NCBI RefSeq assembly: GCF_002114285.1
Contig: NZ_NEDJ01000004.1
Span: forward strand, 1 to 64,000
DNA: 64,000 bases
Reading direction: 5' to 3'
From: Halorubrum ezzemoulense DSM 17463
GTDB lineage: Archaea > Halobacteriota > Halobacteria > Halobacteriales > Haloferacaceae
A model generated the notes under the pieces. The model did no database searches. It had not been told where the DNA came from and saw only the letters and a list, made by a program, of their open reading frames with translations. Shown in pieces: positions 29,431-47,616 of the stretch. The translations under genes and the position numbers were made by a program. Every line of letters begins with the position of its first letter. The stretch's first letter is position 1.

Positions 29431-29453
29431 ACACCCCTCGTTTCGTCTGTTCT
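29431..29453 (+). promoter_or_regulatory. Origin recognition box 1
   Basis: ACACCCCTCGTTTCGTCTGT (first 20 bases) matches the boxes at 29785, 29847 and 29909 exactly. Reversed, it reads as the haloarchaeal ORB pattern of a GAAAC core followed by a G-string (GACGAAACGAGGGG). Confidence 0.7.
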
Positions 29454-29620
29454 CCGGTATAGAACTAGTATGATTCGATCGAAGTCGGCCAGCATGGGAA
29501 GAACAAGCTAGATACACCCAGTTTTACAAGTGAAACTGGGACGAGTGGACCTGAAGAACTAACTTCACTTACAAAGGTGAAGTGTCTCTCGGCTTTTGAC
29601 AGCGTGTCACCCAAGAGTGA

Positions 29621-29703
29621 GAGAGTACGTTTCGTCTGTCTTTGTGAGTAGCTTTTTGCTGTCATCCCGCTATCGCTGTCACAGACAGACGAAACGTACT
29701 CTC
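29621..29703. repeat. Perfect 21-bp inverted repeat with ORB-like cores
   Basis: The arms lie at 29621-29641 (beginning GAGAGTACGTTTCGTCTG) and 29683-29703, with a 41-base spacer. Each arm contains GTTTCGTCTGTC, the core of the origin boxes without the G-string. The inverted layout is typical of Orc1 sites facing each other around an unwinding element. Confidence 0.75.
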
Positions 29704-29784
29704 TATTGTGGGGACGGGGAGAGTACTTTACTTTTAAAGACTACAACACTCTACCGCCGGTCGATAGTGATCTCGAGGTCTCGA

Positions 29785-29931
29785 ACACCCCTCGTTTCGT
29801 CTGTTCTGTTCTCTACAATGAGTGGTGGCTCTGTCTCATTCGAATCACACCCCTCGTTTCGTCTGTTCTGTTCTCTACAATGAGTGGTGGCTCTGTCTCA
29901 TTCGAATCACACCCCTCGTTTCGTCTGTTCT
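29785..29931 (+). repeat. Tandem 62-bp repeats, each starting with an origin recognition box
   Basis: Two identical 62-base units (29785-29846, 29847-29908) and a partial third unit (29909-29931) each begin with ACACCCCTCGTTTCGTCTGT. A 62-base period is close to six turns of B-DNA, which would place the bound initiators on one face of the helix. Confidence 0.85.
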
Positions 29932-29944
29932 TCGGTTTAAACAG

Positions 29945-31141
29945 CTACGGCTGATTCTCAATCGACTCGCGCGTCTCCAGGATAATGTCGGGATCTAACG
30001 CGAGTTCGTATCGGTAGTGAACACCACCTGCGCGTCCTTCGTTCTGTTCGGTTCGTTCGAGAAACCCGAGCATCGTGAGATCCGCGAGATGGTTCTGGAT
30101 ACTTTTTAATGTAGTCAGCGGATCGTGATCCCAGTTTCGTGCGACGCGTTCGTACGCCGCCTGAATCTCTTTTGACCGTGCAGGAATATCCTCGTTCACT
30201 TCGATCCGTGCGAGCGACTCTAAGATGAGCTGCCCGTGCATGGTCTGGTCGCGCAGCTTGTCTTGGACACGGCCTCGCTGGACACGCGCCGCAGCCACCT
30301 CGATATGGTCGTCGGTGATCGCCGTCGCTCCCTGTTCTTCAGCGACATCGCCGCCCTCGCGGAGGAGGTCAATCGCCTGCCGTGCGCTTCCGGTATCTTT
30401 CGCGGCCTTCGCGGCTGCGAGCCTAATAGCGGAGTCTTCACATGCTCCATCAACAAGTGCCTTCTCAGCTCTAGCGGTGAGGATCGACTGGAGTTCATCT
30501 GCGTCGTACGGCGAAAAGGCCAGTTCCTTCTCCATCAGCGTGTCTTTGACTTTGGGACTCAGTGACGAGCGAAACGTGTAATTATTGCTGATCCCGATCA
30601 CGCCGACTCGCGCCGCGTTGAGGTGGTCATTCGCTCGTGCACGAGGGAGTTCGTACAGTAACGAATCAGGATCAGAAAGGTGGTCGATCTCGTCCAGAAT
30701 GAATAGAAACGTGCCACCACGCGACTCCATTTCCTCGTACAACGTTTCGAGGGCGTGCGACGTCGAGAGGCCGGTTTCCGGAAATTTCTCTCCGGCATCT
30801 CCACGGAGACTATTTATAAGCGATCGAACCGTTCTGTACACGCTGTCGTCGTTACAGTTCCGGAAATGAACGTGGAGTTCCTCGGCTTCATCCCGCCGCT
30901 TTACTTCCGTCTGGAGGGCGCTCATCATGTACTCCGTGACCGCCGTCTTCCCGACACCGGTTTTCCCATAAATGAACACGTTTGCGGGATTTCGGCCGAA
31001 AAGCACGTCTTTGAGTGCCGATCGATACGCGTCAATTTCATCGTCTCGTTCGACGATAACGTCCGGACGATACTCCTCCGAGAGAATAGATTTGTCCTCA
31101 AAAAGGGTTTCAGTCATCTCCGTGAAGAGATCTTCAGACAT
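29945..31141 (-). CDS. orc1: Orc1/Cdc6 replication initiator
   Basis: A 398-residue AAA+ initiator that binds origin boxes and loads the MCM helicase. Walker A is GKTGVGKT at residues 59-66, Walker B ILDEID at 148-153, sensor 1 VGIGISNN and sensor 2 in DTGSARQAIDLLREGG. The C-terminal winged helix covers about residues 290-390 (TLKSIQNHLADLTMLGFLER), ending at YELALDPDIILETRESIE. The start MSEDLFTEM at 31141 is preferred over one seven codons upstream because it leaves AT-rich promoter sequence (minus-strand CTTAAGTTAGTAAG) at the right distance. Origin boxes lie on both sides, so this gene and its flanks form a self-contained replicon. Confidence 0.92.
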   Translation of the reverse strand: MSEDLFTEMTETLFEDKSILSEEYRPDVIVERDDEIDAYRSALKDVLFGRNPANVFIYGKTGVGKTAVTEYMMSALQTEVKRRDEAEELHVHFRNCNDDSVYRTVRSLINSLRGDAGEKFPETGLSTSHALETLYEEMESRGGTFLFILDEIDHLSDPDSLLYELPRARANDHLNAARVGVIGISNNYTFRSSLSPKVKDTLMEKELAFSPYDADELQSILTARAEKALVDGACEDSAIRLAAAKAAKDTGSARQAIDLLREGGDVAEEQGATAITDDHIEVAAARVQRGRVQDKLRDQTMHGQLILESLARIEVNEDIPARSKEIQAAYERVARNWDHDPLTTLKSIQNHLADLTMLGFLERTEQNEGRAGGVHYRYELALDPDIILETRESIENQP

Positions 31142-31199
31142 TGTTGATATTCTGAGTAACACTACTTACTAACTTAAGAGTGACGTTTGTCTGTTTACT

Positions 31200-31347
31200 G
31201 TGTTTCGTCTGTTTTCTCGATACAGCCGGAGGGAGGATCAGTACCCGAACTCCGTGATACAGAACAGACGAAATGAGGGGTGAGGTTGATCGCCACCAGT
31301 GATGCACCCCATCGCCCTACTGCGAGAACAGACGAAATGAGGGGTGT
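31200..31347. other. Origin boxes upstream of orc1
   Basis: The gap upstream of orc1 has a forward box core (GTGTTTCGTCTGTTTTC, 31200-31216) and two inverted boxes (AGAACAGACGAAATGAGGGG, starting at 31261 and at 31325). A weaker inverted match, GAAACAGACGAATTGG, begins at about 31384. These inverted boxes face the forward boxes beyond the other end of the gene. Confidence 0.75.
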
Positions 31348-31395
31348 CTGCCCGACATGCCCCGACCCTCGGTTACTAACACGGAAACAGACGAA

Positions 31396-31420
31396 TTGGC
31401 ATCTTCTCCGCCCTGAAGGC
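31396..31420. other. Short GC hairpin followed by T-run
   Basis: CCGCC-CTGAA-GGCGG followed by GGTTTT forms a small hairpin with a T-rich tail, seen in minus orientation at the broken end of the aglF relic. It resembles the structured right ends of haloarchaeal IS200/IS605-type elements but could equally be a terminator; no transposase gene is next to it. Confidence 0.35.
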
Positions 31421-31444
31421 GGGGTTTTAGCCTTGTAAGTTCCA

Positions 31445-31621
31445 TACTCTGCTCGACCTCGTAGCCGACGACGGTGAGTTCGGTGGCTTCCGAGTCGATC
31501 AGGCTCTCGAAGACATCCTCTATCAGGGACGTTCCGATACCTTCGACGAGCGCCTTCGGCTTGTCTTCCGTGAGGGCTGGAGGCGCGTACTCTTGCTCGC
31601 GGCGAGGACGACTGCTTGCAT
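31445..31621 (-). pseudogene. Relic of AglF-like sugar-1-phosphate nucleotidyltransferase, N-terminal fragment
   Basis: Read leftward from ATG 31621 the sequence gives MQAVVLAASKSTRLQP. After a one-base frame change near 31573 it continues LTEDKPKALVEGIGTSLIED, then VFESLIDSEATELTVVGYEVEQ. This is the conserved start of glucose-1-phosphate nucleotidyltransferases (LAAGxGTRLxPLTxxxPK, then a VVGY strand). The usual Gly residues of the nucleotide loop are replaced by Ser, and similarity stops after about 58 residues at the hairpin near 31420. It is therefore a dead fragment. Haloarchaeal AglF partners AglM, whose gene is at 26721-28031. Confidence 0.75.
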
Positions 31622-31698
31622 GGGTGCGAGGTCTGACCGTTCTCCAAACGTCCACATGCGGCGCAACATGTATTGTGTGTGAGCTTGGACTGCTGCGT

Positions 31699-31968
31699 AT
31701 GGCGACTGAAGGAACTCCCGAGGAAACCAAGGTCAGCGATCGGGGTATGGTCACGATCCCGGCGGACCTCCGTCGACGTCTTGACATCGAGCCCGGCGAC
31801 AAACTCCGGTGGAACGTTGATGAAAAAGGGAACCTCTCTGTGGAGATCGTCAAGCAGTGGTACGGCTCGTTCGACGACTTCGATCCAGTCTCGATGGAGG
31901 GCGGTGGGTCTGAAACCCATGACCTCGCAGGTCACGAGGACGATCCCGTCTTCTCGGAGACCAACTGA
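31699..31968 (+). CDS. AbrB/SpoVT-type antitoxin or regulator
   Basis: An 89-residue protein with a swapped-hairpin AbrB domain at residues ~8-50: ETKVSDRGMVTIPADLRRRL then DIEPGDKLRWNVDEKGNLSV. The acidic C-terminal tail (WYGSFDDFDPVSMEGGG) is the part that in VapB/PhdYefM-like antitoxins wraps a PIN toxin. A vapC gene usually follows, but the next gene (31972) runs on the other strand and encodes an HNH protein. It is therefore an orphan, either a remnant of a toxin-antitoxin pair or a lone regulator. The start MATEGTPEE at 31699 gives the usual length. Confidence 0.8.
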   Translation: MATEGTPEETKVSDRGMVTIPADLRRRLDIEPGDKLRWNVDEKGNLSVEIVKQWYGSFDDFDPVSMEGGGSETHDLAGHEDDPVFSETN

Positions 31969-31971
31969 TGA

Positions 31972-32655
31972 CTATCCTACTGTTCGGTTCGATCGCTTGC
32001 CATCGTTAGCGCCGTACTCGAGGATGACGTCGACATCAGCGATCGGTTTACGGTCGACGGGGTGCCAGACACTATCGGTCCATTTATCGACGACACGCCA
32101 CCACCCCGGGCCGTCGTGACGTTCAACGAACCGTATTCGGTAGCGTCCGGAGTCTTCGAGTGTGTACTCGATGGTGGCTTCCTGGATATCTGCTGGCTGT
32201 TCACGGTGGCCGCCGTCACTCCAGATTGCGTCCGCGTTGAACTCGCCATTGGAGTCAGTGACGTCTCGTTCGTATCGGAGATACGACGTACTCCGGGGGG
32301 TGCCGTCGTCGTCTCCGTACCGCCACGCAGCTTCTTTTGCTGTCAGCTGTGGCGTCTCGGCGTATTCTTTCCGGTGGGCGTTCCACGCATGCCGATCCGA
32401 GATTGGGAGCTGGCGGTGCCACTGCCGGTACGGCGGCTCGTCTACCCGGTGGATATGGACATGACAACTCTGACACAGCGGGATGGCGTTCGCGACTCGA
32501 TCATCTGTATCGTCGCCGTTGAGATGGTGTAACGAGAGTTTGTCCTGTTGTCCCCCGCCGACAGCCGCTTGGAGCCAGCCTTCCGGCGACCGCCCGCAGA
32601 TCAAACACTCACGGCCCCATGCATCATACACTGCTTGTCGGAATTCGTCTGTCAT
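31972..32655 (-). CDS. HNH endonuclease with C-terminal GWWR domain
   Basis: A 227-residue protein. The N-terminal half is an HNH nuclease: CLICGRSPEGW, the catalytic LSLHHLNGDDTDDRVAN and the zinc pair PLCQSCHVHIH. The C-terminal ~55 residues (IEYTLEDSGRYRIRFVERHD, then GPGWWRVVDKW and WHPVDRKPIADV) match a small stand-alone protein encoded at 48543-48827. This suggests a separate domain that recurs in the element. The start MTDEFRQAVYD at 32655 is the first ATG before the HNH core; an in-frame GTG lies 13 codons upstream. It could nick or cut foreign or plasmid DNA; its target is unknown. Confidence 0.82.
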   Translation of the reverse strand: MTDEFRQAVYDAWGRECLICGRSPEGWLQAAVGGGQQDKLSLHHLNGDDTDDRVANAIPLCQSCHVHIHRVDEPPYRQWHRQLPISDRHAWNAHRKEYAETPQLTAKEAAWRYGDDDGTPRSTSYLRYERDVTDSNGEFNADAIWSDGGHREQPADIQEATIEYTLEDSGRYRIRFVERHDGPGWWRVVDKWTDSVWHPVDRKPIADVDVILEYGANDGKRSNRTVG

Positions 32656-34167
32656 CGTGATCGAGCTGGTGAGCCGTTCAGATGTGAGCCCCACACGGTA
32701 CCGGTCGCGTTGGTTGATGTCGATTCAGGTGTCCATAGCACGCCCGAAATCGACAAACGAGATACGGAGCACTCGCTGTCAATTTGAGGCGTGACTCGTT
32801 GGGTGTTCCAACTCATTACACTGAGGGGGCGAACGGGAGGCTTTGCTTCCCCTTTCTTTCGCCCTCTCACTTTCACCGAGGGATACAAACAGATCGGCTG
32901 GACCGATCTCGAAATACGGGATATCCACCTATATATAGAGATCAGGCTGATACCTCCAGCTCTAGGTGGAAGTACAGTCCATCGAGTTCGTCTCTTTCTT
33001 TTTGGCCGATCAGAAGAGAACACTCACTGTACTATACTCACAGATAGTCGAAAAATACCACTCAAATTAGGGTACTCCAGCGGTACTTCTAGTATGTGTT
33101 AAGCTTATACTTAGTGTGAGAAGGGTGAGTACCATTCCACGCTAAATCCCATGACGGGGTGGTTCACACACTATCTGTGACCGATTGAATATAAGAATAA
33201 CAACCCCCTCACCGGAACTGAGTGTGAGAAAGCCACCAAGCCAGCGGGCCACCACGGAGGGAAAAAGAAACAGATCGAACGCACCCAGACACCGCCATCT
33301 AGAAAACCCTCCCACTAGCGTCGGCGACGGCGTCCGTACAGGCTGACGGGATCGACACCCGTAGAAACGACCCCACGACTGTACTGCGACGCAAGGATAG
33401 ACATCCCACCTGACGGGCCCCCGCTCTCACGAACGGACTGGGTAATCGAATCCCCGTGCTCCCAAAGCGGTCCTGACTCAGAGAGACCGATTGGACGCAT
33501 GACACAGACGCATCGATGATGGTGGCGGCGTGTTCACCAATCCTGGCTTGCGAAGGGCATTCACACCGATCTGAGAACCACCGTGGTGTTACTTTTTTTG
33601 CTGCGTGTTGAGATACTGCGACGACCCTCGATCTCCCCTCCGATTACCGACATCGGCTATCCGTTCACTAGGGGGTGGGTGCACCAACAACTGCGGTTTA
33701 GATCAGCGAAATACTCAGATTTTATAGATACGGGATCGAGACTCAGAACTTTCCTGAAGAGCGCGGGTGAAACCCGAATCGGATCTGCGTTGGCGCCCGC
33801 CAGCATCTACCATTGGTTGTGTTGGTTGTCCCTTTTTGCTTTTGATATCACATCTCAGATATATAGTGCGACAGCAGGTGGATTCCTTTGGCTGGTTGGT
33901 CATTGTTATTCTTATATCCAATCGGTTCCAGCTAGGATGACTCGCTGTCGTCTTGCGGTTTAGTGTTCTGTAGGGTGACGCGTGTACACCCTACTCTGTC
34001 GTAGATTCACCCTAGTATATGGAGGCCTCACAGTAGTATGTCCAGCTGATCGTCTCCGAAAGAGAATATGTTTCTGCTGTCTGGACCCTCGCTGTCGTCG
34101 CAGTTGTCACCAAGCGCTGTCTAAGCCAATAGTCGATCCACAAGACGACGATTCGATGACGGCAATA
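32656..34167. other. Gene-poor low-GC stretch with scattered repeats
   Basis: About 1.5 kb without a convincing gene. It is visibly richer in A and T than the chromosome (for example ATCCACCTATATATAGAGAT near 32921). It holds an 11-bp inverted repeat TCACAGATAGT (33038-33048) / ACTATCTGTGA (33170-33180) and recurring AGTGTGAGAA words near 33114 and 33219. One short minus-strand frame (33315-33500) is listed separately. This could be a decayed gene region, a regulatory region or a second, plasmid-type origin; nothing decides between these. Confidence 0.5.
33315..33500 (-). CDS. Possible small protein, uncertain
   Basis: A 61-codon frame starting at ATG 33500 reads MRPIGLSESGPLWEHGDSIT and later GMSILASQYSRGVVSTGVDP, ending in a run of Arg. 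Its composition is balanced and its GC content is higher than the surrounding DNA, which suggests a real or recently lost gene. There is no recognised family and no partner gene. It may be a fragment. Confidence 0.3.
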   Translation of the reverse strand: MRPIGLSESGPLWEHGDSITQSVRESGGPSGGMSILASQYSRGVVSTGVDPVSLYGRRRRR

Positions 34168-34938
34168 TCAACACGACTCAGAATATTGATATCCTGCCTT
34201 CAGCTGATCGAGAATCTCGACAAACGCGGCAGCGATTCCGATCGAGAACATCGCCCAGAGGACACCGGCGACGGGGAGTGTCACAGTTCCGTCAGCGATC
34301 GTGATCAGTCCAACGGATAGGGCTGTCAGTGCCACACCGGCGGTGCTGAAGCTCATCCCAGCGCCCCAAGGATTCGAAAGCCGACCACCCGCGAGTTGCG
34401 CGGGAATCACTGCTGGTCGATCAGCGGTCTCAGGGAGGGGCCAGACTGTCGTCTTGACGTCGTCTCTTGGGCTCGGATCGTCCATCGTGATCTGATCTCG
34501 GATGTCGTCAGGGTGTGTTCGATCAAAGGCTGGGGCGACGTCCCGTTCCGCTGGGAGCCCCAATTTCTTATCTGAGCCGTCTTCGACCTGTTCGAGAATC
34601 CCAACCGCAACCAAATTCTTGAATGTCGTCCTGTTGGTGTCTCTCCCTGGTTTTTTTGTATGGTTGAGCTGGAACTTTTTGTGTTGATCAATGAGGGTCT
34701 GGAGCCGAAACCACCGTTGATCTGTCGCACCCGTCCGCAGTTGGACTAAATGGAAGGCGGTTATTGGATAGAAACAGTGGTGGCGTTGTCCTTCCGTACG
34801 GATGCCTGCTAGGCTCGGAAAGATATCCTTGAGGGCGTGTGTCTCGCTCTGGTCAATTTCATCGAAGACCCAGTCTGGTAAGTGATCGCCCAGATCCTGA
34901 TCGAGTGCTCGATCAATATTGATAGTGTCTGTAGTCAT
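34168..34938 (-). CDS. Hypothetical protein with two C-terminal membrane helices
   Basis: A 256-residue protein starting MTTDTINIDRALDQ at 34938. The first 180 residues are soluble, with a helix-turn-helix-like stretch (TTFKNLVAVGILEQVEDGSD) after a basic, polar segment. The last 75 residues hold two helices (AGVALTALSVGLITIADG and LPVAGVLWAMFSIGIAAAF). A soluble winged-helix-like part joined to a membrane anchor could tether DNA or sense the membrane, but no family is recognised. An upstream in-frame extension of 40 codons is possible but AT-rich and Ser/Arg-rich. It is isolated on both sides. Confidence 0.6.
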   Translation of the reverse strand: MTTDTINIDRALDQDLGDHLPDWVFDEIDQSETHALKDIFPSLAGIRTEGQRHHCFYPITAFHLVQLRTGATDQRWFRLQTLIDQHKKFQLNHTKKPGRDTNRTTFKNLVAVGILEQVEDGSDKKLGLPAERDVAPAFDRTHPDDIRDQITMDDPSPRDDVKTTVWPLPETADRPAVIPAQLAGGRLSNPWGAGMSFSTAGVALTALSVGLITIADGTVTLPVAGVLWAMFSIGIAAAFVEILDQLKAGYQYSESC

Positions 34939-35359
34939 TAGTTTCTGTACCGCAGTGCGTCGTTTTGAATCTTTTTCTGAAAATGATAGACGTGTGACTA
35001 GCCCGCATATGTGTGCTGCGGGTTTTGATCTCGATCGTCTTGAGAACAGACTCTCCATATTTCACAGAAGATTATTTCTATCACTAGATAGTTCTCCGAG
35101 AAAATCGGATGTTGTCGTTTTCTCCTTCTGAATATTGACGTATCGGTTCTCTTTGCTCACTAAACTAATGAGTGGTTAGTGTCCTCTATCAATATAAATA
35201 CATCGACTAATAGAGACTCGTCGATCGGTCGGCGCGGATTATCTTCCTCCCGTCACTCTCTCTAGTCACACGAGAGGGCAACTGCCACACCAACGGACGA
35301 ACCGAGAGCTCACAACTGACTGCGTCGGCAGACTCTAACGCACCGACACTCCGATATAC
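34939..35359. other. AT-rich intergenic region
   Basis: No convincing gene is seen. The stretch is AT-rich around 34940-35200, then becomes GC-rich. It must carry the promoters for the leftward gene at 34938 and for the rightward operon starting at or after 35360 (GATATACA just before ATG 35360). Confidence 0.5.
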
Positions 35360-35515
35360 ATGACCAATTACACTGTCGCTTTCCCCCCACGCCGGCTGGC
35401 TGCGGCGAGGATGACCCAACTGGCAGCACCGGGGAACACGATCGGCAACGACCAGAACGCCGCGCTCGCGAGAAGGATCGACACCATCACCGACGGACGC
35501 CTCGGGCACCGCTAA
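35360..35515 (+). CDS. Possible small protein upstream of the large-protein operon
   Basis: A 51-codon frame from ATG 35360 reads MTNYTVAFPPRRLAAARMTQ, later ALARRIDTITDGRLGHR. GATATACA sits just before the start. It ends 23 bases before the 717-residue gene on the same strand. The composition and GC-rich third positions are consistent with coding, but there is no family match, so it is only a candidate. Confidence 0.35.
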   Translation: MTNYTVAFPPRRLAAARMTQLAAPGNTIGNDQNAALARRIDTITDGRLGHR

Positions 35516-35538
35516 CCGAGCACGGATACACTGTACAG

Positions 35539-37692
35539 ATGTTCAAACGCGTTCCAAACGCGGCTGATCCGCCGGACGCACAGACGCCAGCGATCGCGCG
35601 ACATGGCGCAGTTCACGCTTGCGAAAGCGGTGTCGACGATCCCTCATACCGGATCTCTACGTCGCTTGCTCTGGCACTATCCCGGGTCCTGACACGCGGA
35701 CTCGGAGAAACAGGGTATCCGTCGATCGAGCTGCTCGGGCTGACCGGCGTCGAGGTTCCCACTGTCGTGCTCCACGGGAGCGGAACAGAGATGCATAATA
35801 CGGGGTGGATAGGTCCCGTGTCGACGCCGTCGACACAAGAGCCGAGCGAGGCGTTAGCGGCGATCTGTACCGAGGAGTTCCCGGACTGGTACGGCATCGA
35901 AACGGGAACGCTCGTTCTCGATACGGTCGGGCTGGCCGCGGTCCCGACAAGTCGGCTCGTCGTTCGCGAGGGGGCACCTGATGCGGCAACGCTCGATTCG
36001 CTACTGCGGACGATTCTCACCCGTAACCACAATCGCAACGTCCCGACGCTCTGTCAGCTGCTCGTCCGTCTCGCAGGAACCGATCAGTATCAGGTGACGG
36101 CTCGCGTCGCCGAACTCGGGGTCCCGTGCCGCCCCCTCGGTCGGTACGGGCTGGCGTCGTCGCTGGCGTCGCCGGCGCCCTGTCCGATCGATCGCGAAAC
36201 GCCGTCGGAGATCACCTCTAGTCGGTGTCTGGCGACCGACAGGTGGGAGACCAGCATTGAGTCCGGTCATACTCGGACACCAGGGCTGGCGGCGAGCGAC
36301 GGACTCACGCCCGCATCGGACGCGGCGGTGACGGCCTTAGAGCTCCGGACCAGCACCCACGAGTTCGCGTCGTTGCTGGCGGGGACGGCGGGTGCGGAAC
36401 CGTATACATCGCTGGGGGTTGCGCCGACGATGACCCTCTCGGAGCCGGGGTTGGCGGCGCTTGTTGACGTCACGCCGCACTACGAATCCTGCGACTGGCC
36501 GGTAGCACCGTCACGGTTCGCGCCGCGGTTCATCCGCGACACGGTCCATTCTGACGCCGCTGGGACGGACAACGAGTCAGTCCTCGCCGGTCCACAACGG
36601 CTCATGACGTTGCTTGGCGTCCAAGACGGGAACTCGATTCCCGACTTTGTCGACGGGTGGCTCTCGGAGAGCGGTATTACTCACGAGTCGGTCGCTGACC
36701 GCTCACGTGGTGACCCGCACTTTCGGGGACATCCGCATGACCCGGAGGGACCTGTCGTGGTCGCCGACCCGGAGGCCGACCCGACGGAGAATATCCTCAC
36801 GTCTGCTGGGGGACTCATTATGGCGGCGAATCGGGCGCGCCGATCAGACGCACATCTCCTCGTGATCACGCCCTCAGAGCAGACTGCCGAGTGGGCCAGA
36901 GACGTGCTGACAGTCCCTTATCTTCGCCGTCAGGGCGATACCGCGCAGCTGTACACCGTCCCGATGGACATCCAGACAGTACAAGGTGATGTCGTCGTTG
37001 CTCCCCGGGAGTCGGACCCCGTCTACTGGACCGTCTCCGATACTGGCCGCCGAGCGGTCTATCAAGGGGATCGGTGTCTCGCGTCGGGGCCGGTGACGGA
37101 GCCGATCGCCTCGTACGCCTTCGAGGCGCCGCGGGTGCGCAAGCGCGACGGCTCGCTGTACGTCATGACTCCCGAGGGAGACGTTCGAAAACGGTTCGCC
37201 TCTGCCGAGGCTCTCCATGCCGAGTATTTGGGCGTGCCGCGTCCGATCATGCCAGTCCGACCGCTGTTCTGTACGGATGTCACGGTCGCCGCCCGGGATG
37301 GCAGTTCTCTCCGTGAACCGCCCGTCCCATTCGGCCAGTTCGAGGGGTCGGATCACCAGCGCCGCCCAGAACATTACAAGCGCGGACTCGTGGAGTTCAT
37401 CGAGACTTACACGCGACGGACATCGACGCAACCGTCCGCTGACACCAGCACCGCACCGCGGTTCGTCGAGCAGTTCCGGCGTTGGTATGACGGACATTCG
37501 ACCCGATCACCACCGTCGCGATTGCGCGTTGCTGATCAGATAGATCAGCTCCGGGGGCGCAGCGAGATCACCGACGCCGGGGCATTGACCCGCCATTCGT
37601 GGTGGACCCCGGCTGACTCGCTCCCGCTCGCACTCGCACACGGCCACGCTGACGACACAATCGTCGCAGCTGACCACCCGAACACAAACTAA
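35539..37692 (+). CDS. Large hypothetical protein A of a paired operon
   Basis: A 717-residue protein of unknown family starting MFKRVPNAAD at 35539. The C-terminal half is homologous by eye to the protein at 37897. EPIASYAFEAPRVRKRDGSL here parallels QPVESYEFHTPRVKKDGSDW there. VVVADPEADPTENILTSAGG followed by HLLVITPSEQTAEWA parallels the nuclease-like segment of its partner, but without the PD and ExE residues. A short helical end (FIETYTRRTS, FVEQFRRWYDGHS) fits the winged-helix tail of the partner. No signal peptide or helix is seen. It may be a catalytically dead paralogue in a complex with the partner, with only a 65-codon gene between them. Confidence 0.75.
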   Translation: MFKRVPNAADPPDAQTPAIARHGAVHACESGVDDPSYRISTSLALALSRVLTRGLGETGYPSIELLGLTGVEVPTVVLHGSGTEMHNTGWIGPVSTPSTQEPSEALAAICTEEFPDWYGIETGTLVLDTVGLAAVPTSRLVVREGAPDAATLDSLLRTILTRNHNRNVPTLCQLLVRLAGTDQYQVTARVAELGVPCRPLGRYGLASSLASPAPCPIDRETPSEITSSRCLATDRWETSIESGHTRTPGLAASDGLTPASDAAVTALELRTSTHEFASLLAGTAGAEPYTSLGVAPTMTLSEPGLAALVDVTPHYESCDWPVAPSRFAPRFIRDTVHSDAAGTDNESVLAGPQRLMTLLGVQDGNSIPDFVDGWLSESGITHESVADRSRGDPHFRGHPHDPEGPVVVADPEADPTENILTSAGGLIMAANRARRSDAHLLVITPSEQTAEWARDVLTVPYLRRQGDTAQLYTVPMDIQTVQGDVVVAPRESDPVYWTVSDTGRRAVYQGDRCLASGPVTEPIASYAFEAPRVRKRDGSLYVMTPEGDVRKRFASAEALHAEYLGVPRPIMPVRPLFCTDVTVAARDGSSLREPPVPFGQFEGSDHQRRPEHYKRGLVEFIETYTRRTSTQPSADTSTAPRFVEQFRRWYDGHSTRSPPSRLRVADQIDQLRGRSEITDAGALTRHSWWTPADSLPLALAHGHADDTIVAADHPNTN

Positions 37693-37699
37693 CCACTTC

Positions 37700-37897
37700 A
37701 TGAACAACACTGAACTCGAATTGATCGATCTGCTAAGCGGGAGTCACCACAGCCTATCACGGCTGGGGGGGCTCCACGCTCTGCGGACATCAGTAGCACG
37801 ACGTATCGTCCCCGATCGGCGGCACAGCTATCAGGCGTTGCTGTGCCTATCTGTGCTTGCCGTCGTGATACCGACGCAGGAATCCACCATCAGATAA
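37700..37897 (+). CDS. Small protein between the two large paralogues
   Basis: A 65-residue frame starting MNNTELELIDLLSGSHHSLS, 7 bases after the stop of protein A. Its TAA overlaps the ATG of protein B (TAATG at 37895-37899). It has a helix-like N-terminus and a hydrophobic stretch near the end (LLCLSVLAVVIP). The tight spacing on both sides supports translation as the middle gene of a three-gene operon. No family is recognised. It could alternatively be only a leader that couples the two large genes. Confidence 0.5.
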   Translation: MNNTELELIDLLSGSHHSLSRLGGLHALRTSVARRIVPDRRHSYQALLCLSVLAVVIPTQESTIR

Positions 37898-40263
37898 TGC
37901 AACGAAACCCCAGCAGCCGACTGTATGTTGATAAAAACGGGAATCTTCGGGCGTATCGGCTTGATGCCGTTCGACTGATCTTCCCTGGGATTGCCGACGA
38001 TACCGACGAGCGGCGCCTCGATGGCCTGCTGCCGTTGGACGATGTCGCCGAAGATATTCTTGACGAGTACGGGATCGACCTGCTTGAGTTGTTGACGTGG
38101 CCCGGGAAAGCCCAGCAGGAGTATTTCCTGATCGGCCACAGTAGCCAGGGCAGAGCAGACTCCCGACTTAAGAATCCGGAGGAATCGGAATCAGACACTA
38201 CCGATGACGCTGATGTGAGTACCACGGACACGCAAACGACGCTCTCAGCCGCAACCGACGGTGGCAACGGTGAAGACGATGCCGACAGTGAGGGTGACAC
38301 TACGGGATCGTCGGACGGAGAGCCCGACCAACCCGTCTCAGACGGGCGAGACGGAGACCGAGACACGCGGGCTGAGCGCATCAAAGCGATCGTCGACGAT
38401 CACTACGGTGATAAACTCGGCACTGAGATCTGTACCGTCGATCTCGGCCCCATCGGGAAGATGCCGGTTCCCACAAGTCGGCTGCTCCAACCGGCAAATC
38501 TCTCGATCACGTCGCCAGAGGTCTCTCGAAAGTCCGCGACGGCTGACCTCGTTCACGACCTCAACGACGAACGGATTTCGTATCTACACCAGAGTCTGCT
38601 GGGGCCGGCCGGGAGTTCGGCGCCGCACGATTATCTCATTACCTCACGACTCGCGCCGTTTGGAACCGGCCACGGGATCGTCACCGAAGACGACCTCACG
38701 CGGCATGTTGAGGCGGACAACGACTACCGAATCTCCGATTACGTGCCGGGGCCGTCCACAGATAACTGGGGGCTCCCAATCGAGAAACACAAGCGATACG
38801 CGAACAAGCAGACCACACACCCGTCGCAACTCGAACAGCTCGATGAGATGAGCCTCCGCGATGGATCGATCGAAGCACTTGCTGCGGGCGACCCCGAGTT
38901 CCGCGCGATGCTTGGTGGGCGCGTCCATAACGACGATCGCTACGAAGAACTCTTCGGGGCCTACGGCCGGATCCCAATTGAGAAATCCGAACTGAAACAC
39001 CTCTTCGCCGCCCTCCCCACGTATTTCGAGGCGAGTTCGTTTGGCCGACTCACGACCATCGATGAACCAGACTTCTCGACGGAGCAACTCGGGAGCCATG
39101 CACCCGGTACGCGTCAGTCCTACGGCACGGATCATCCCGGTGATTCGACAACACTGTCTGACAGCTCTGACGAAGAGTCAGACAGGCACAAAGAGTTGGT
39201 CATCGAGCGGATCAAGTTTCTCCTTCGGCACGGTCACAAGATTATAGCCGTGGATCAGGACGTTATCGAGGTTGACCTCTCAGATCCCGATCCAACCGAG
39301 TCACAATATCTGAGCGGCGAGTCTCGGCCTGATATTGTGAGCAAAAAAGACGGCGAGATTCTCTTTCATGAGATCGAAGTCGAAAACGACTCGAAGCCGG
39401 CAGCGCTGCTCACGAATCTCGCACGGGGCGTCTATCACGATCATCCTGTTCACGTCATCACCGAATCCCAGTCTGAGGCGCAAGGCAAACTGTGGTCGGA
39501 TCCGCCCACCGCCAAAGATGGTCCTGTCAGTATGGCATTCAAAGACACTGACGAGAGAGGGACAATCATGTACAACCAACAGAAAGATGTCTCGACTGAA
39601 GCGTGCTGGTATCTCTTGCCCCGCGATCTCTCCGAATCAACGTGGCGGGTACTACCAACGGATACTGTCCAGTTGGTTGGCAAAGACGGATCCATCCTCG
39701 CAGAAGGCGACGCGGAACAGCCGGTTGAGTCGTACGAGTTCCACACGCCCCGCGTGAAAAAAGACGGCAGCGACTGGGTACTGGAGTCGGCCTCCGGCGA
39801 GGAACTTCGCCGGCGACGGAGAAAAGACGCCGCCACAAGCGGCTACACGTTCGTCTGGAAGCCGCTTATTCCGACGCAGTTCGAGTACCTCGCGAACACG
39901 ACCGTCGAGTTCCAGTCGGAGAACGGCTTCACGATCTTCGAGAAGCCCCCGCTGTGGGAGCAACCACAGCAAAACGCGTCAATTCGGTACGAAGATGCTG
40001 CGAAAGCATTCGTCGAGTTATTCACGATCGAAGACGAAGGCGCCGAGATCCCAATTCCCACGCTTCGCCGGCGGTTCAAAGCCTGGTACACCGAACAGAC
40101 CGATCTGAAGGAGCCGAATGAGACCTGGTTCGGGCGCGCACTCCGCGCCTACTTCGAGGTTGACGACGAGGACGATCACAACAAGACCCTCGTCGGTCGG
40201 ACGTTCCGGTTCTCTGAGGGGCTCGAGTCACCGGATCTGTCCTTTATCGAGGACGCCGAGTAG
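37897..40263 (+). CDS. Large hypothetical protein B with PD-(D/E)XK-like and winged-helix-like domains
   Basis: A 788-residue protein starting MQRNPSSRLYVDKNGNLRAY. Residues ~90-160 are an acidic Ser/Asp/Gly linker. Around residues 475-500 it has SRPDIVSKKDGEILFHEIEV, with PD followed by E-x-E after a hydrophobic strand. That is the layout of PD-(D/E)XK nucleases, with a later VYHDHPVHVITES strand. The C-terminus FVELFTI, IPIPTLRRRFKAWYTE, WFGRALRAYFE looks like a winged helix and resembles the end of the protein at 46955. ATG 37897 overlaps the upstream stop and gives a natural N-terminus. Probably a DNA-acting effector or replication/maintenance protein of the element; function unproven. 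Confidence 0.75.
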   Translation: MQRNPSSRLYVDKNGNLRAYRLDAVRLIFPGIADDTDERRLDGLLPLDDVAEDILDEYGIDLLELLTWPGKAQQEYFLIGHSSQGRADSRLKNPEESESDTTDDADVSTTDTQTTLSAATDGGNGEDDADSEGDTTGSSDGEPDQPVSDGRDGDRDTRAERIKAIVDDHYGDKLGTEICTVDLGPIGKMPVPTSRLLQPANLSITSPEVSRKSATADLVHDLNDERISYLHQSLLGPAGSSAPHDYLITSRLAPFGTGHGIVTEDDLTRHVEADNDYRISDYVPGPSTDNWGLPIEKHKRYANKQTTHPSQLEQLDEMSLRDGSIEALAAGDPEFRAMLGGRVHNDDRYEELFGAYGRIPIEKSELKHLFAALPTYFEASSFGRLTTIDEPDFSTEQLGSHAPGTRQSYGTDHPGDSTTLSDSSDEESDRHKELVIERIKFLLRHGHKIIAVDQDVIEVDLSDPDPTESQYLSGESRPDIVSKKDGEILFHEIEVENDSKPAALLTNLARGVYHDHPVHVITESQSEAQGKLWSDPPTAKDGPVSMAFKDTDERGTIMYNQQKDVSTEACWYLLPRDLSESTWRVLPTDTVQLVGKDGSILAEGDAEQPVESYEFHTPRVKKDGSDWVLESASGEELRRRRRKDAATSGYTFVWKPLIPTQFEYLANTTVEFQSENGFTIFEKPPLWEQPQQNASIRYEDAAKAFVELFTIEDEGAEIPIPTLRRRFKAWYTEQTDLKEPNETWFGRALRAYFEVDDEDDHNKTLVGRTFRFSEGLESPDLSFIEDAE

Positions 40264-40298
40264 AACCACACCGTTTCCGGAACCCTCCGGAAACCCAG

Positions 40299-41455
40299 TC
40301 AACGGTGTGGGGCGCGCTCTAGGATATCGAAGATGTCGACTGCTTTGTACTCCCGGTTGCGCTGTTGGCCAGTTACCTCGATAATCAAGCCCTCTGTTTC
40401 GACTTCTTCGATCGAGTTGTAGGCTGTCTGTCGGCTCACATTAAATCGCTCCGTAATATCGTTCGCAGTGAAGTAGGGAAGCTCGAATAGATTTCACACG
40501 AGTTTGTGACTCGTCTTTTGAGCCGAATATTATGTTTCGTACTCTCGGCGAAGTTCGATCAGCTCGAACGTCCGCTCGTAGGAATTGCGGGCTTGATCTT
40601 CAATGCCGTCAATAAAGAACGTAATCCAGTCACGCCAGTTGCCCTCTTCGCTGACCGCCCGCATCTTTACAACGTACTCCTGCTTGTTCCGATTGAAATA
40701 GGCACTCGGATAGAGATACAGATCGGACAGATAGCTGGCCTCGAGGAGTTGTAACACGATCAAGATGCGTCCAAGGCGCCCATTGACATCTGACAGGGGT
40801 GAATTGTCTCGAAATGGTAATGAGTGATCGCCAGGTCAACTAACGGGTGATACTCGCCCCCTATCTGAATGTACGCCTCCAGTAAGTCCATTAACTCTGT
40901 GACGGTACTTGCTGGCGGCGGGACAAACGGCGACTGACTTCGGTGTGGTGACGGAATGTGAACGTCGCTATCTCGCCACTCTCCGACAATTTCACCTTCA
41001 TTCCGGACCCCTTTGAGAAGTGTTTCATGGAGGGATTTGAGTAGTGCTACCGAGATCGACACTCCGCTTTTGATCGCATCAGCCCCGTCTCTGAGAGCTT
41101 GTTCAGCGTTGAGTGCTTGTTGTAAGTCACGACTTACATTCTCGGTGTCGCCGGACTTGCCTCGTGTGTGATACGCGTACACCTCATCCATATCGACATC
41201 TGCGCCTTCAATTTCGGCAGTTTCGAGAGCCTCGAGGCTGAGAAGCGACGTGTACAACACCGACGAGAAATCGGTTGTTGGACTGACTCCATCAATGCGA
41301 CCGAGCGGAAACGTCGCGTCCGATATCGTCGCTGTGAACTCGTCATCGATCTCGATTGGGGATTAGACGGACAACTTCTCTGGAATGTAGTAGGGACGAG
41401 GATGTGACTCCCGGTAGTGTCCCGGTGCCTCCGAAAGCAAATATTGCGTTCTCAT
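40299..41455 (-). pseudogene. Fic-family AMPylase gene with four lesions
   Basis: Read leftward from ATG 41455 the gene begins MRTQYLLSEAPGHYRESHPR and continues as a Fic/DOC protein: SLEALETAEIEGADVDMDEV, then LVDLAITHYHFETIHP. Lesions are an in-frame TAA at 41363-41365; a frameshift near 40795 inside the Fic motif (HP in one frame, then LSDVNGRLGR in the next); TAA at 40530-40532; and TGA at 40494-40496. The last part, ELPYFTANDITERFNVSRQT, is the usual C-terminal winged helix of haloarchaeal Fic proteins, ending at 40299. Every domain is still readable, so inactivation is recent. Intact Fic proteins transfer AMP to target proteins. Confidence 0.88.
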
Positions 41456-41690
41456 TTTGAATTAGATTTTGTGTGACGTGTCTTAATCATACTATTTATA
41501 AACTAGTTTGAATAGTGGGTGCCATATCTGACACTAAGTGTAACGGGCCGTCGCTCCGCTAGCCCGTACAGGTCACAGGGTCCGATCGTATCCGCTTCCA
41601 GTAGTCGTGGAATCGCAGTCTAACGATACTCCTGAGCGATCAAAGTACCATGCTAGGATTCACGGATCTGTACTATAAAACCCAACATGT

Positions 41691-42038
41691 ATGAGCGAAT
41701 CTAATGATCACACCCCATTCCCGGTCCTTCCTGATACGGACGAGTATACAGTCCTCAGCTTTCTCGTCCGATACAGCGGTGAGCGCTTTACTCCACCTGA
41801 GATCGTCGAGCAGACGACTGTTAGTGAACGAGAAATTTCCGAAACGATGGAGTACTTACTCGAACACCAACTCATCTGCCACTCTGCGGAGACCTACTAC
41901 GTCGATCCAGATCAAGGACCTGAACTCAAACGCAGACTCAAATCAATTGATGCTGTGGTACGTCTGTTTGAATATACACCCGATGATGATATCTATAGTG
42001 AAGGAGGGTGGGAGGACCAAGTGGAATCGATACTGTAG
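41691..42038 (+). CDS. Small winged-helix protein
   Basis: A 115-residue acidic protein starting MSESNDHTPFPVLPDTDEYT. Residues 25-85 look like a winged helix: YTVLSFLVRYSGERFTPPEI, then VSEREISETMEYLLEHQLI and a wing with SAETYYVDPDQG. Similar haloarchaeal proteins precede toxin genes of the PemK/MazF type. The ~140 bases after this gene show no such toxin, so the partner may be lost. A regulatory or antitoxin role is plausible. Codon use is lower in GC than the main chromosome. Confidence 0.65.
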   Translation: MSESNDHTPFPVLPDTDEYTVLSFLVRYSGERFTPPEIVEQTTVSEREISETMEYLLEHQLICHSAETYYVDPDQGPELKRRLKSIDAVVRLFEYTPDDDIYSEGGWEDQVESIL

Positions 42039-42182
42039 TATATTCGGTTCCTCAGCGAAAAGACCCAGATCTAGAGCCCGAGAGTGGAGATCGCACGAGG
42101 CATTTTTGAGTCACCGCAGTCGTACTGGTTTCGAACACGGTAGTTTGGTCAGCCACCGTGATCAGTACATTCAGCTTCCCGT

Positions 42183-42473
42183 TCAGGCCGTGTCGTGATC
42201 TCCCGTCTCTTCGTCGAGATACCGCCAATCTTCAGTGTCCAAACGACCTTCGAGATACGCCTCGCCGTCTTCAGTGATCACATAGACCCCATTTCCAAGA
42301 TGATCGACTAATCCCTCTTCAGCTAATTTCTTACATCTCCGATCCACTTGTTGACGTGAATATCGGATTGGACCTTCTCGCTTCATCTTGGTGGGTGACC
42401 CAGATTTATGCTCAGATAGATACTCTAGAATACGGTCATCTGCCGCAGTCATCCAACTACCCGCATATCTCAT
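42183..42473 (-). CDS. PhiH1-type winged-helix repressor
   Basis: A 96-residue protein starting MRYAGSWMTAADDRILEYLS at 42473. This opening and the end (LAEEGLVDHLGNGVYVITED, then GEAYLEGRLDTE) are characteristic of the haloarchaeal PhiH1 repressor-like winged-helix family. Members act as repressors in viruses, plasmids and integrated elements. An in-frame upstream start (42518) is less typical. It is divergent from the plasmid-type operon at 42693, which has a palindrome at its start codon (42669-42692) that this repressor could bind. The binding is an inference from position. Confidence 0.85.
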   Translation of the reverse strand: MRYAGSWMTAADDRILEYLSEHKSGSPTKMKREGPIRYSRQQVDRRCKKLAEEGLVDHLGNGVYVITEDGEAYLEGRLDTEDWRYLDEETGDHDTA

Positions 42474-42668
42474 AGGTCTCTCTGTTGTTCCAAGGTCTAT
42501 ATTACGGTCGGATCGCACTCTTGAGTATTGGTGGCTACTAGAATTGTCGCCGTCATATTAATAAGACAAGAGCGTATGTGATTAATCACGGAACCCAAGT
42601 GACGAATCTTCGGCTCGTGAGAAAGTGTAGAAACCCCGACCGCGGTGCTCCAACACCCGGCCGGGACG

Positions 42669-42692
42669 GGTTCTGTGCAGTAACACAGAACC
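42669..42692. promoter_or_regulatory. Perfect 9-bp inverted repeat abutting the operon start codon
   Basis: GGTTCTGTG (42669-42677) and CACAGAACC (42684-42692) are exact inverted copies around CAGTAA, ending on the base before ATG 42693. It could be an operator covering the transcription start of a leaderless operon, or an mRNA hairpin if a leader exists. The divergent PhiH1-type repressor gene is the nearest candidate regulator. Confidence 0.65.
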
Positions 42693-42884
42693 ATGCTAAC
42701 GCTGGCAACTGCGGGGCTTAAGCCCTGCGAGACGACTGACGGATCGAACAGCAACAGCACCACCTGTCGCCGTTGTACAAACACCGCTGATGGGTACGAC
42801 GCTGTCGTCGATGGCCCACTCTGTACGACATGCGCTGAAACACGCAGTGTCGACGAAGAGACCGTGGAGGGGGACGATGCCTAA
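42693..42884 (+). CDS. Small zinc-finger protein, first gene of plasmid-type operon
   Basis: A 63-residue protein with two CxxC pairs (CRRC and CTTC in TTCRRCTNTADGYDAVVDGP and LCTTCAE), forming one treble-clef or ribbon-like zinc site. The ATG follows immediately after the perfect inverted repeat at 42669-42692. Its TAA overlaps the start of the next gene (ATGCCTAA at 42877-42884). Small zinc proteins of this kind often head operons in haloarchaeal plasmids and integrated elements. The function is unknown. Confidence 0.65.
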   Translation: MLTLATAGLKPCETTDGSNSNSTTCRRCTNTADGYDAVVDGPLCTTCAETRSVDEETVEGDDA

Positions 42885-43203
42885 CTCCCACGCCGAAAGC
42901 GACACCGCACATCCACTCGCCGGTCTCTCAGCCACCCACCGCGACCTGCTCTGGCTACTCTCACAGACTGGCCCGAGTGAACTCCCTCCACTCCGGCAAG
43001 CACTCGCCGACTACTACACCGACGGTATCGATCGAACCCACTGCTGTGACACACTTGAGGCTCTCAGAGAACGCGACCTCATTGCCAAACAGACCTACGA
43101 CACCACCACGTACCGGCTCACCGAGTCGGCTCGACGCGCACTGTCTGCCCGGCAAGCGTGGCAGGCTGGCAATCTTTCCACCACGGAGAAGGAGGACGAA
43201 TGA
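42877..43203 (+). CDS. Winged-helix DNA-binding protein of plasmid-type operon
   Basis: A 108-residue protein starting MPNSHAESDTAHPLAGLSAT at 42877, 8 bases inside the preceding gene. The core is a winged helix: HRDLLWLLSQTGPSELPPLR, then the recognition region CCDTLEALRERDLIAKQTYD and a wing TTYRLTESARRAL. Its end overlaps the next gene (ATGA at 43200). The whole operon 42693-46794 is joined by such overlaps. It may control copy number or transfer of the element, but the role is inferred only from context. Confidence 0.78.
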   Translation: MPNSHAESDTAHPLAGLSATHRDLLWLLSQTGPSELPPLRQALADYYTDGIDRTHCCDTLEALRERDLIAKQTYDTTTYRLTESARRALSARQAWQAGNLSTTEKEDE

Positions 43204-43679
43204 CGCGGCCCACCGCCGACAGGACAGTCGCAGATCGCCAGCAACTCGCACGCATCTCACTCGATACCGACAACCTGATCTGCCAAGTGTGCGGGCAACC
43301 GCTTCAGGAGGGTGCCGACGTCACCGCCTACGCCTACCGAGCGGCAGGTGACCCCGCGTACGAAATCGGCTACGTCATGTGCGGAGGCGACGGTCACGAA
43401 CATCCGACCGTCTTCACCCGCGGGGTTCGCGAGGAGGTTCTCATAGGTCACATCGGAACCTGTGCTGACGTGCGTACCCAGTCGACGACGTACATCCTCC
43501 TCGATCCAACCGTTGTCGTCAGGAGTCCGGCAAGGAGCTCGGAGCCGCACGTCCAGTCGGCCGCTCCAACACCCCGCACCCCAATCCACCCACCACAGCA
43601 GGAGCCAACGCCGTTGCTTACTGCCGTTCGCGAGCACGCCCGCTCTGATGGTGGTACGCCACGTGGAGGATCGGAATGA
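43200..43679 (+). CDS. Conserved haloarchaeal plasmid protein with CxxC motif
   Basis: A 159-residue protein beginning MTRPTADRTVADRQQLARIS. It has a knuckle at LICQVCGQPLQEGADVTAYA and a later CGGDGHEHPTVFTRGVREEV, which may complete a zinc site with His and Cys. The next strand, STTYILLDPTVVVRSPA, is a recurrent phrase in this haloarchaeal family (DUF8112-like, from memory). The Pro/Thr-rich C-terminus is disordered. It is coupled to both neighbours by ATGA overlaps at 43200 and 43676. The function is unknown. Confidence 0.75.
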   Translation: MTRPTADRTVADRQQLARISLDTDNLICQVCGQPLQEGADVTAYAYRAAGDPAYEIGYVMCGGDGHEHPTVFTRGVREEVLIGHIGTCADVRTQSTTYILLDPTVVVRSPARSSEPHVQSAAPTPRTPIHPPQQEPTPLLTAVREHARSDGGTPRGGSE

Positions 43680-46576
43680 TCCTGGCCGCTGTCGCCCACC
43701 AGCACATTCGTCGGTGATCGCTCGTGGGACCACGCCAGCCTGCGGGTCGTGAGCGGGGGATCCGGCTCATTAGCCATGAGACGGAGCGTTCCACCGAGGG
43801 ACCCGTCTGTTCAGCGGTCTCGCCGCGGCTGACCGAGTGGGTTCCACAGCTACTCAGTGAGCTCCACCCGCACACCGAACGGACGATCCGTACCTCCGCT
43901 ACCGACACAGATCCGTGACGCGCAAGTACACAAATCCTCTCGGAAAACTGCCCAGCGTGGCAGGATCTCGACCAGCCGTGGACCGATGATGTCGCCGAAG
44001 CCGTCGCGTACACCCGCGCGGTCACGGCACTCGCGCTCACCTATGAGGATGACCCCGTCAAGGAATGCTCATCGCATCACCGCCACCGACATGACGAGCT
44101 GGCTGACACCGTCACCACCATCGGGACGGGCCGTGGCCCAGTCAATGCCGGTCTCGGCGCACTCGCGAAGGGACCGGTCGCAGTACACCGCGAACTCGCC
44201 GACCAGCCTCGCGTCCTCACACTCTTGTTGGACGGCGAGGCGTGGACCACGCTCACGGGTCGACTCACGGGCGTCCGCGCAGTCGCGGCGATCACCGTGC
44301 TCGCCGACGGATTCAATGTGAGACTCGTCGCCTCGCCCGCCGTGCGACGACACCTCGCCAAGCGGTATCCTGAGTGGACCGGGATTCACCTCGGTCTTAC
44401 TGAGCGCCGGGATCGGTCCCTACAGGGTAGGCGTTCCACGCAGTGTACTCCCACCGAGACCACGGTCGATACGGTTTGGGAGGCGATCTGTGATCTCGAT
44501 AGCGAGCCGGGAAAACGACGCCTCCTCAGCAATCTCAAGCGCGCCAACGGTCGAGCCTATCGCGACCTCGCTCACGACGACGCGATCGATATCGCTCACG
44601 GCACCGTCAGCCGGTACGTCCTCGACCTCGAAGCGCGCGGCCTTGCGACTGTCGACAGTCGCGGCCAGCACAACACCGTCCGGCTCACCGATCTGGGCCA
44701 CTTGGCCGTCCAAGAGTGCCTCGACGGCGACTCTGCCCTCGTTCACCCGAATCAGCCTCGACTCGATGGGGGTCTTACTGTAACCCCTCACGAACTCACA
44801 AGTACAGTGTCGTCCCACCGGAGGGGACCAGAAGTGACTCCCAGTAGCGACGAGTGGCTGGCGACGACCGGCGACCCAGACGCGGACGCTGACTACGTCC
44901 AGTAGCTCACCGGCCCGGAGCGCACCTGCGACCACCGGCTTCACGAGCGATTCGCCACCGTCGCCACCGACGACGCGCTCACGCTCGTCGACGACCAGCC
45001 GCACTCGTTCGACGACGGCCGTGTCGCGTACCTCAGTCACAGAAACGGTGAGACGCTCATCGTCCTCTAGTGGGGCGGGCCCCTCGCCACTTTGGGACGT
45101 CTCGCGGGCACCTTACTGGGCGAGAAGGCACTCTCGACAATTCTGACGCCCTCGCGACTCGGCCACGAATTCGACGCGATCGATGAAGGCACCCACGAGT
45201 ATCCCACCGACCGCATCCTCCGCCGGGGCCACCAAGTCGGGTGGTACAGCGACGAGGAAACCACCTACGGGGCGTGGCGCGGTCGGATCACGACCGTTCG
45301 CGACCGCCTCCTTGAACGAGTCGCCGCGCTCATAGGGAGTGATGACACCGCCGCGCGCAGCGAACTGTTTGAAGATCTCCACAGCCTCATCGCCTCGGCG
45401 ACGCAGCTGTACCACGCGGTCGGCATCGATCTCACAACGACGATCAGGATCCCCGACACCGACGCGCTCGCTCGCAACGAGACTCGGCGTGCGGACCTCT
45501 GTGGGTTCCTCGCCAAAACGGCGCCCAAACAGTCCGTCTACGGGATCCACTCTGGGTACCGGATGCTGTTCGAAGACCGGCCCGCAAAGCTGTGCCGGCG
45601 GCTCCCCTCCGAAATCGATCGCAACGCGACGATGGATCTCACGATGTCGTGGGTGCTCACCGGTCCGACGGTCACTGAGCTCCGCGACGAGATCGCTGAC
45701 ACCCTCTCGACAGAGCTCACGACGGTCCGCGAGTCGATCGCCGATGGCACCGAAGCCGCACCGACTCTCGAGATTCCGGTCGTCGACGGGATGACCTACC
45801 CCGCCATCCGGCGGGTGATCGACGAAATTGCGATGAGCCACAGTGTTCAGTAGACCGCCCGCGAGCGCCAGCGGCTAGTTCGGGTGTGTCTGCGCTCGTT
45901 CGGCCTGTCGGACACGACCCCAAGAGCGTGTCCGTACGACGTTGTAGCGAGCCTCCTGCGAGCGCTGAACGAGTCTCGGACGCCGATGTGTCTCGACGTG
46001 GAACGGGCGGCGGCCACGCTCCCGCCCACGCGCTTCCGGCCCGATCTCACGCCGACGGCCACCACCCTGTACGCCGCCCTGCTTCGCGCCGGCCGGCCGC
46101 TCGGTCGGACCGACCTGATCGAGCGAGCCGGCATCTCGGCGAATAGCTACGATCGCCGTCTGAGTGCCGTCCGCAATCTCGGTCGAGTGGTTGCCGTCCA
46201 GGTGGATGGCCACCGCCGGTGGAGCACCGGCGACGCGGCGCCAGCGCCGGTCGGTCACTCACGCTCCACCAGCAAGGGGTTCATACAGGGCAGGGGCAGC
46301 TCCACCTCGAAGCCGCTGGTGCCGTCTCGGCGGCCAGCTACTCTTGTGGAAGTCCGTGGTGTTCAGACGGAGCTCCAGCCACGAAGGCATACGTCGCTTC
46401 CGGCGGGTCAAAACTGGCACCCATGGGCAGTCGCGAGCGTTCACCCCGACCAGCCGTCGCGAGTCGCACAGATCGCTCACCACTCCCTCGAACATCCAAT
46501 GACGAACCCACCCACCTCGACGACAGTCGCATCGACGACAAACGCACAGCCGACGACGAGCGAGGATCCGCAATGA
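43676..46576 (+). pseudogene. Large plasmid-operon gene with five in-frame stop codons
   Basis: From ATG 43676 (overlapping the upstream stop) to TGA 46574-46576 a single frame is readable for about 966 codons, broken by TGA 43715-43717, TGA 43916-43918, TAG 44903-44905, TAG 45068-45070 and TAG 45851-45853. No frameshift is needed anywhere. Readable parts include a winged helix (DDAIDIAHGTVSRYVLDLEA, then RGQHNTVRLTDLG), the conserved WGGPLATLGRLAGTLLGEKA, ATQLYHAVGIDLTTTIRIPD and a second helix-turn-helix near the end (DLIERAGISANSYDRRLSAV). It is the largest gene of the operon. Decay by point mutation is the simplest reading; stop-codon recoding is discussed in the findings. Confidence 0.85.
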
Positions 46577-46794
46577 GCGGCCCGGCGATCGACCTCGAGA
46601 CAACGCTCGGCGCGCGGCGAGAACCGTTCGTCCGGGAGTTGCGTGATCGGCTGCTGCTGTTGCACCGTCGAAGCTCCCTCGACATCGAGGCGCCGGTGTT
46701 CCCTGGAGCAAGCTACGGCCCGTGTTACCTCCCCGATCGGACGGGCAACAGCGAGGACGTCGGCGCCCGTGACAACGACTACGAGATCAGGTGA
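46573..46794 (+). CDS. Small conserved protein ending the plasmid-type operon
   Basis: A 73-residue acidic protein starting MSGPAIDLETTLGARREPFV at 46573, overlapping the stop of the large gene (ATGA). Further on it reads ELRDRLLLLHRRSSLDIEAP and VFPGASYGPCYLPDRTG, with no stop or frame break. It looks like the usual last gene of this operon type in haloarchaeal elements. Its intact state beside the broken 2.9-kb gene is notable. The function is unknown. Confidence 0.7.
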   Translation: MSGPAIDLETTLGARREPFVRELRDRLLLLHRRSSLDIEAPVFPGASYGPCYLPDRTGNSEDVGARDNDYEIR

Positions 46795-46954
46795 AAATGG
46801 TCCCTAAAGGGTTGTGTAACCGTCGATATCCATTCTTTCACCAGTATCGTGAAACAGTACTTTTAGTATGGGGATCTATGAATGTGTCGACCGATCGGCG
46901 ATGTTCGATCCGTCATAACCCGCATGTGTTTATGGCCTGATCCTTCGAGTGCCG

Positions 46955-47608: not shown

Positions 47609-47616
47609 CCCTATCT

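Follow-up and report, generated by a model that had tools for sequence, protein, structure and literature searches.

The orc1/cdc6 gene in the 64-kb Halorubrum window analysed here (the whole stretch of DNA, 64,000 nucleotides) lies between two sets of origin recognition boxes (ORBs), and the locus is probably a secondary, Orc1-specific chromosomal origin at which replication initiates upstream of the gene, with the downstream boxes binding surplus Orc1 and so damping initiation. Such a secondary origin is most likely dispensable. By computation we established the identity and specificity of the boxes, conservation, an intact gene, the asymmetry in stability and chromosomal synteny; Orc1 binding, upstream initiation, downstream titration and autoregulation are what we infer for the locus, its function as an origin being suggested by its anatomy and by published relatives.

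Six perfect copies of the 19-bp core CCCCTCRTTTCGTCTGTTC surround orc1, four downstream and two upstream (Table 1; sides are defined by the minus-strand gene, upstream being 31142–31400 and downstream 29431–29944). The first-pass annotation had described six full boxes, four forward and two inverted, in two sets facing each other across the gene. All six lie exactly where it placed them and converge on orc1, and the weaker cores it mentioned, at 29630(+), 29685(-), 31203(+) and 31387(-), are real. With up to three mismatches allowed, the core occurred in the window at these six sites only (shuffles gave an expectation of 0.05), and in the whole 3.6-Mb assembly it was found at the six locus sites and at one further site, with one mismatch, on contig C113. 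The same pattern read backwards, used as a control, gave no match in that assembly. The CCCC/GGGG (G-string) half is present in all six full boxes. Two of the downstream boxes are spanned by a perfect 62-bp tandem duplication (29785–29908) that strain Atlit-26R, at 99% identity, does not have, and the innermost one keeps its position, 15–40 bp past the gene, in most relatives. H. salsamenti, H. halophilum, H. salipaludis, G030 and G020 have an intact third upstream box at the equivalent place; the window, Atlit-26R and H. yunnanense share a stump of it, which in the window is the weaker core at 31387. Both degenerate forward cores are retained in several relatives.

Table 1. Features of the orc1 locus, in window coordinates
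Feature	Position	Strand	Remarks
Outermost downstream box (ORB)	29431..29453	+	Exact 19-bp core; also in Atlit-26R and H. yunnanense
Inverted pair of sister-type boxes, GAGAGTACGTTTCGTCTGT, in downstream array	29620..29704	.	25-bp arms, 35 bp apart
Downstream box, first copy of 62-bp tandem duplication	29785..29807	+	Exact core
Downstream box, second copy of 62-bp duplication	29847..29869	+	Exact core
Innermost downstream box, just past orc1 stop codon	29909..29931	+	Exact core
orc1/cdc6 initiator gene	29945..31141	-	ATG at 31141; stop TAG 29945-29947
Candidate DNA unwinding element, overlapping orc1 start	31128..31177	.	Nearest-neighbour stability
TATA-like element ACTTAAGA, ~31 bp before ATG	31172..31179	-	Read from sequence
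Two degenerate forward cores, TTTGTCTGT and TTTCGTCTGT, beside the likely promoter	31185..31212	+	17 bp apart; G-string half absent
Upstream inverted box 1	31261..31283	-	Exact core
Upstream inverted box 2	31325..31347	-	Exact core
Upstream inverted box 3, stump	31386..31397	-	Core retained; other sequence in place of G-string half

The initiator itself is intact. Read from the ATG, Orc1 has 398 aa (the open reading frame listing uses a GTG at 31162, giving 405 aa), with AAA+ ATPase, Cdc6 lid and C-terminal winged-helix domains and Pfam matches above the cut-off to Cdc6_lid (1.5e-18) and Cdc6_C (5.3e-17). Its dN/dS was 0.03–0.06 against five orthologues (dS 0.5–1.0) and H. yunnanense, and the protein is under purifying selection. 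The candidate unwinding element is the least stable 50 bp between 28 and 33 kb, and in 18 of 19 loci the upstream 300 bp contain a less stable stretch than the downstream 300 bp, with one tie. This AT-rich zone has the full upstream boxes on one side, with the degenerate forward cores lying in between; in the opposite direction the only boxes are those of the far downstream set, past orc1. The TATA-like element, conserved as ACTTAA/TTTAAA in relatives, is likely the orc1 promoter. Because the upstream side combines the least stable zone with degenerate forward cores beside this element, it is there that unwinding would be expected.

That boxes occur on both sides of the gene had seemed exceptional at first reading, but there is nothing unusual about the layout, nor is it confined to the window. 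Wu et al. (2012) reported ORBs in both flanks of cdc6E in Haloarcula hispanica, and two-flank ORBs are also described at genes of Haloarcula marismortui, Halobacterium and Haloferax volcanii, as well as at three predicted origins of Halorubrum lacusprofundi (Hlac_1078, Hlac_2747 and Hlac_2997), which are like the window origin in genus and in having boxes in both flanks (PMC3528665). A scan of named species genomes revealed 16 loci with Orc1 proteins 74–99% identical to that of the window, in Halorubrum, Halohasta, Halobellus, Haloquadratum and Natronocalculus, and two more at 58–65% (some of the 16 are in genomes that also bear G handles here). Boxes flanked the gene on both sides in all 16, nearly always pointing at it, and with the window, G030 and G020 included the count was 19 of 19. 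Neighbouring boxes on the same side were most often 54–66 bp apart at these 19 loci, with a tail of longer gaps. The window has four boxes downstream versus two or three in most relatives, and G030 carries a 95% identical orthologue with three boxes on each side on a contig of 2,735,295 bp. Of the genomes of the genus in which gene and box were both sought, every one of the 11 with an orthologue of at least 79% identity had a box cluster, and those that lacked such an orthologue had zero, one or two isolated sites. The earlier assignment of the boxes to this orc1 thus gains support, as box clusters occur only where this type of Orc1 occurs.

How might such a locus work? Orc1 made from the central gene would bind the boxes on both sides. 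Unwinding and initiation would take place in the upstream intergenic region, where the AT-rich zone at the promoter, the degenerate forward cores and the inverted full boxes lie together, and the cores beside the TATA-like element could let Orc1 repress its own gene. The downstream boxes, which have no comparable unwinding element, would take up surplus Orc1 and thereby damp initiation, as oriC2D does in H. hispanica. There, the region of 11 ORBs downstream of cdc6E shows no origin activity and lowers that of oriC2, it could not be deleted unless oriC2 was deleted too, and titration of Cdc6E by the cluster has been proposed (PMC3936714). Both systems would be secondary chromosomal origins with ORBs in the two intergenic flanks of the initiator gene, and both have a box cluster directly past that gene (29431–29931 in the window). 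The likeness is one of layout, and by this analogy the downstream array, smaller than oriC2D, most likely acts as a brake. Among the matches listed, the best Haloarcula plasmid Orc1 is 44.7% identical to that of the window. How strong its titration would be is uncertain, because the window has four boxes in ~500 bp, and most relatives two or three, against 11 in 722 bp in oriC2D. In E. coli, datA lies apart from the initiator gene, and its sequence and its initiator (DnaA) are unrelated to those of the window. If the brake holds, the window array would work much like datA, where clustered initiator boxes absorb the initiator. datA has been compared with oriC2D before (PMC3936714).

The downstream array also holds boxes of a second type. 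The weaker cores at 29630 and 29685 are part of the 25-bp inverted repeat with box type GAGAGTACGTTTCGTCTGT, which in other genomes lies next to sister Orc1 genes; the pair is present in Atlit-26R and absent from H. yunnanense. Window and sister boxes have the core TTTCGTCTGT in common and differ in the other half (GAGAGTAC in the sister type versus CCCCTC). Sister Orc1 proteins (in H. aquaticum, H. lipolyticum G005:C35, G024 and G030) are 57–60% identical to the window Orc1, and their origins were two-sided where examined, with H. aquaticum, G024 and G030 carrying sister boxes in both flanks of the gene. No sister orc1 was found in the window genome, where the best other Orc1 is only 41% identical. 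G030 has an orc1 gene of the window type at 1,077 kb and one of the sister type at 1,086 kb, and there (G030:C2, 1076989–1086952) two two-sided origins of sister types stand 8 kb apart with glmS and glmU between them, on a single contig of chromosome size. Boxes of related plasmid Orc1 proteins (Halocatena, Halorussus, Haloferax) look modular, with a variable G-string half (CCCCTC, AGTAC or GGGGTC) and a variable core (CGTCTGT or CGAGTGT), and such modules might be matched to Orc1 domains. On the Halocatena plasmid the boxes form a tandem array with a 56-bp period, upstream only.

The sole other window-type box of the genome (G000:C113, 16257–16275; L064) closely follows a parA-like gene and a small gene on their downstream side. 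An equivalent trio occurs in another Halorubrum genome (G017:C68, 3716; L184), with a ParA 99% identical and the same box, and no relative of the window Orc1 was found in the 7.5 kb around it. An element might in this way make use of the chromosomal Orc1.

Where a stray box occurs in another Halorubrum genome, it is often the trace of a decayed copy of the origin. In G059, G062 and G060 a C-terminal scrap of a window-type orc1 is followed by boxes just beyond the scrap end, G066 has an orc1 scrap with one box per side, and G018 and G015 have a single downstream-oriented box at the glmS site. Leaving out the strays G017:C44 and G009:C45, which have no orc1 scrap nearby, boxes remained on the downstream side only in five decayed copies, on both sides in one and on the upstream side only in none, and no intact copy was found that lacked downstream boxes. 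This survival of the downstream side matches the H. hispanica genetics, although few copies are involved and they need not stem from independent losses. One could go further and propose that the downstream array is a general, selected brake of this Orc1 lineage, and that the inverted sister-type pair could let a second initiator from another element act on the origin. Decaying copies would then keep downstream boxes, and often a C-terminal scrap of orc1, because decay is possible only from the upstream (initiating) side. We consider this extended proposal speculative and rather unlikely as a whole.

At two loci a different orc1 lies beside the remains of such a copy. At the glmS site of G015 (G015:C23, 4936–6513; L098) an orphan window-type box has as its neighbour an unrelated orc1 (32% identity) that carries different repeats of its own. 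In G060 (G060:C4, 2497–5043; L181) a sister-type orc1 origin occupies the place of the front half of a window-type orc1, whose adjoining remnant comprises residues 217–396 (76% identity) and two downstream boxes, an apparent case of origin replacement.

The repeated losses in relatives raise the question of whether the window origin is itself dormant or decaying, with gene and boxes conserved but firing seldom or never in this strain. The truncated third upstream box would fit, as would the GC skew of the G030 chromosome (the 2.7-Mb contig, sampled at about half coverage), which has no inflection at the locus. Nevertheless, the locus still has two perfect upstream boxes, the AT-rich zone and an intact gene, and the stump is common to H. 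yunnanense at a dS of 0.35, so orc1 has stayed intact since the truncation. We therefore regard dormancy as unlikely.

The arrangement had also been taken to suggest a compact, autonomous replicon now residing in chromosome-like sequence. A plasmid or other element integrated here with its own two-sided origin could account for the low-GC neighbourhood from ~28 kb on, for related Orc1 proteins (54–63% identical) on haloarchaeal plasmids and for glmS-linked empty sites in several species: G023, G017, G028, G029 and G033 have glmS near their homologue of the 51.0-kb region, with neither orc1 nor boxes. (The neighbourhood in G003 and G068 is a different one.) Rather than lying within element boundaries that are absent from relatives, however, orc1 and its boxes occupy the same position beside glmU–glmS in four other genomes (G005, G012, G020 and G030), two of them on ~2.7-Mb contigs. 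Against integration also stand the upstream-only arrays of the plasmid relatives examined and the lack of any tRNA in the 64-kb window that could have provided an attachment site. The locus is not a recently integrated replicon, and integration in the sense first proposed is quite improbable, although the family may have an ancient plasmid origin; at the glmS site gain and loss are both plausible. We also reject the idea that the locus copies an origin catalogued for a phage or plasmid, as phage records contained only distant Orc1 relatives (~25%) and no plasmid record matched most of the locus at the DNA level.

What looks foreign to this place lies next door. A ~20-kb island of lower GC (31398–51007) is missing at the corresponding site of G030 and G012, where the homologue of window 51.0–55.3 kb lies within ~400 bp of the upstream boxes; the stretch from 31.40 to 51.0 kb therefore either was inserted next to the origin or took the place of that short stretch. 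It starts within the third upstream box, outside the full boxes of the origin, which again counts against an integrated replicon, and synteny rules the island out as carrier of the origin. One of its open reading frames (49061–50335, minus strand) is TnpB-like, judged by eye. An IS200/IS605-type end was suspected at 31398 by look; the short open reading frame beside it had no Pfam match.

That both box sets form one bipartite origin, with the Orc1-bound sides joined by looping and the downstream boxes promoting initiation, would suit their convergent orientation in nearly all loci and their constant presence on both sides, but is very improbable given that the H. hispanica downstream region lowers rather than raises origin activity (PMC3936714), that the spacing between the sets varies among relatives (>600 bp beyond the gene in L090) and that the plasmid relatives examined do without a downstream set.

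The two-sided layout had been known from a few haloarchaea; here it turns out to be fixed in one Orc1 lineage across at least five genera, and the initiator-titration model of H. hispanica becomes testable by comparison across many species. This origin has been lost and swapped in the chromosome, leaving recognizable scars.
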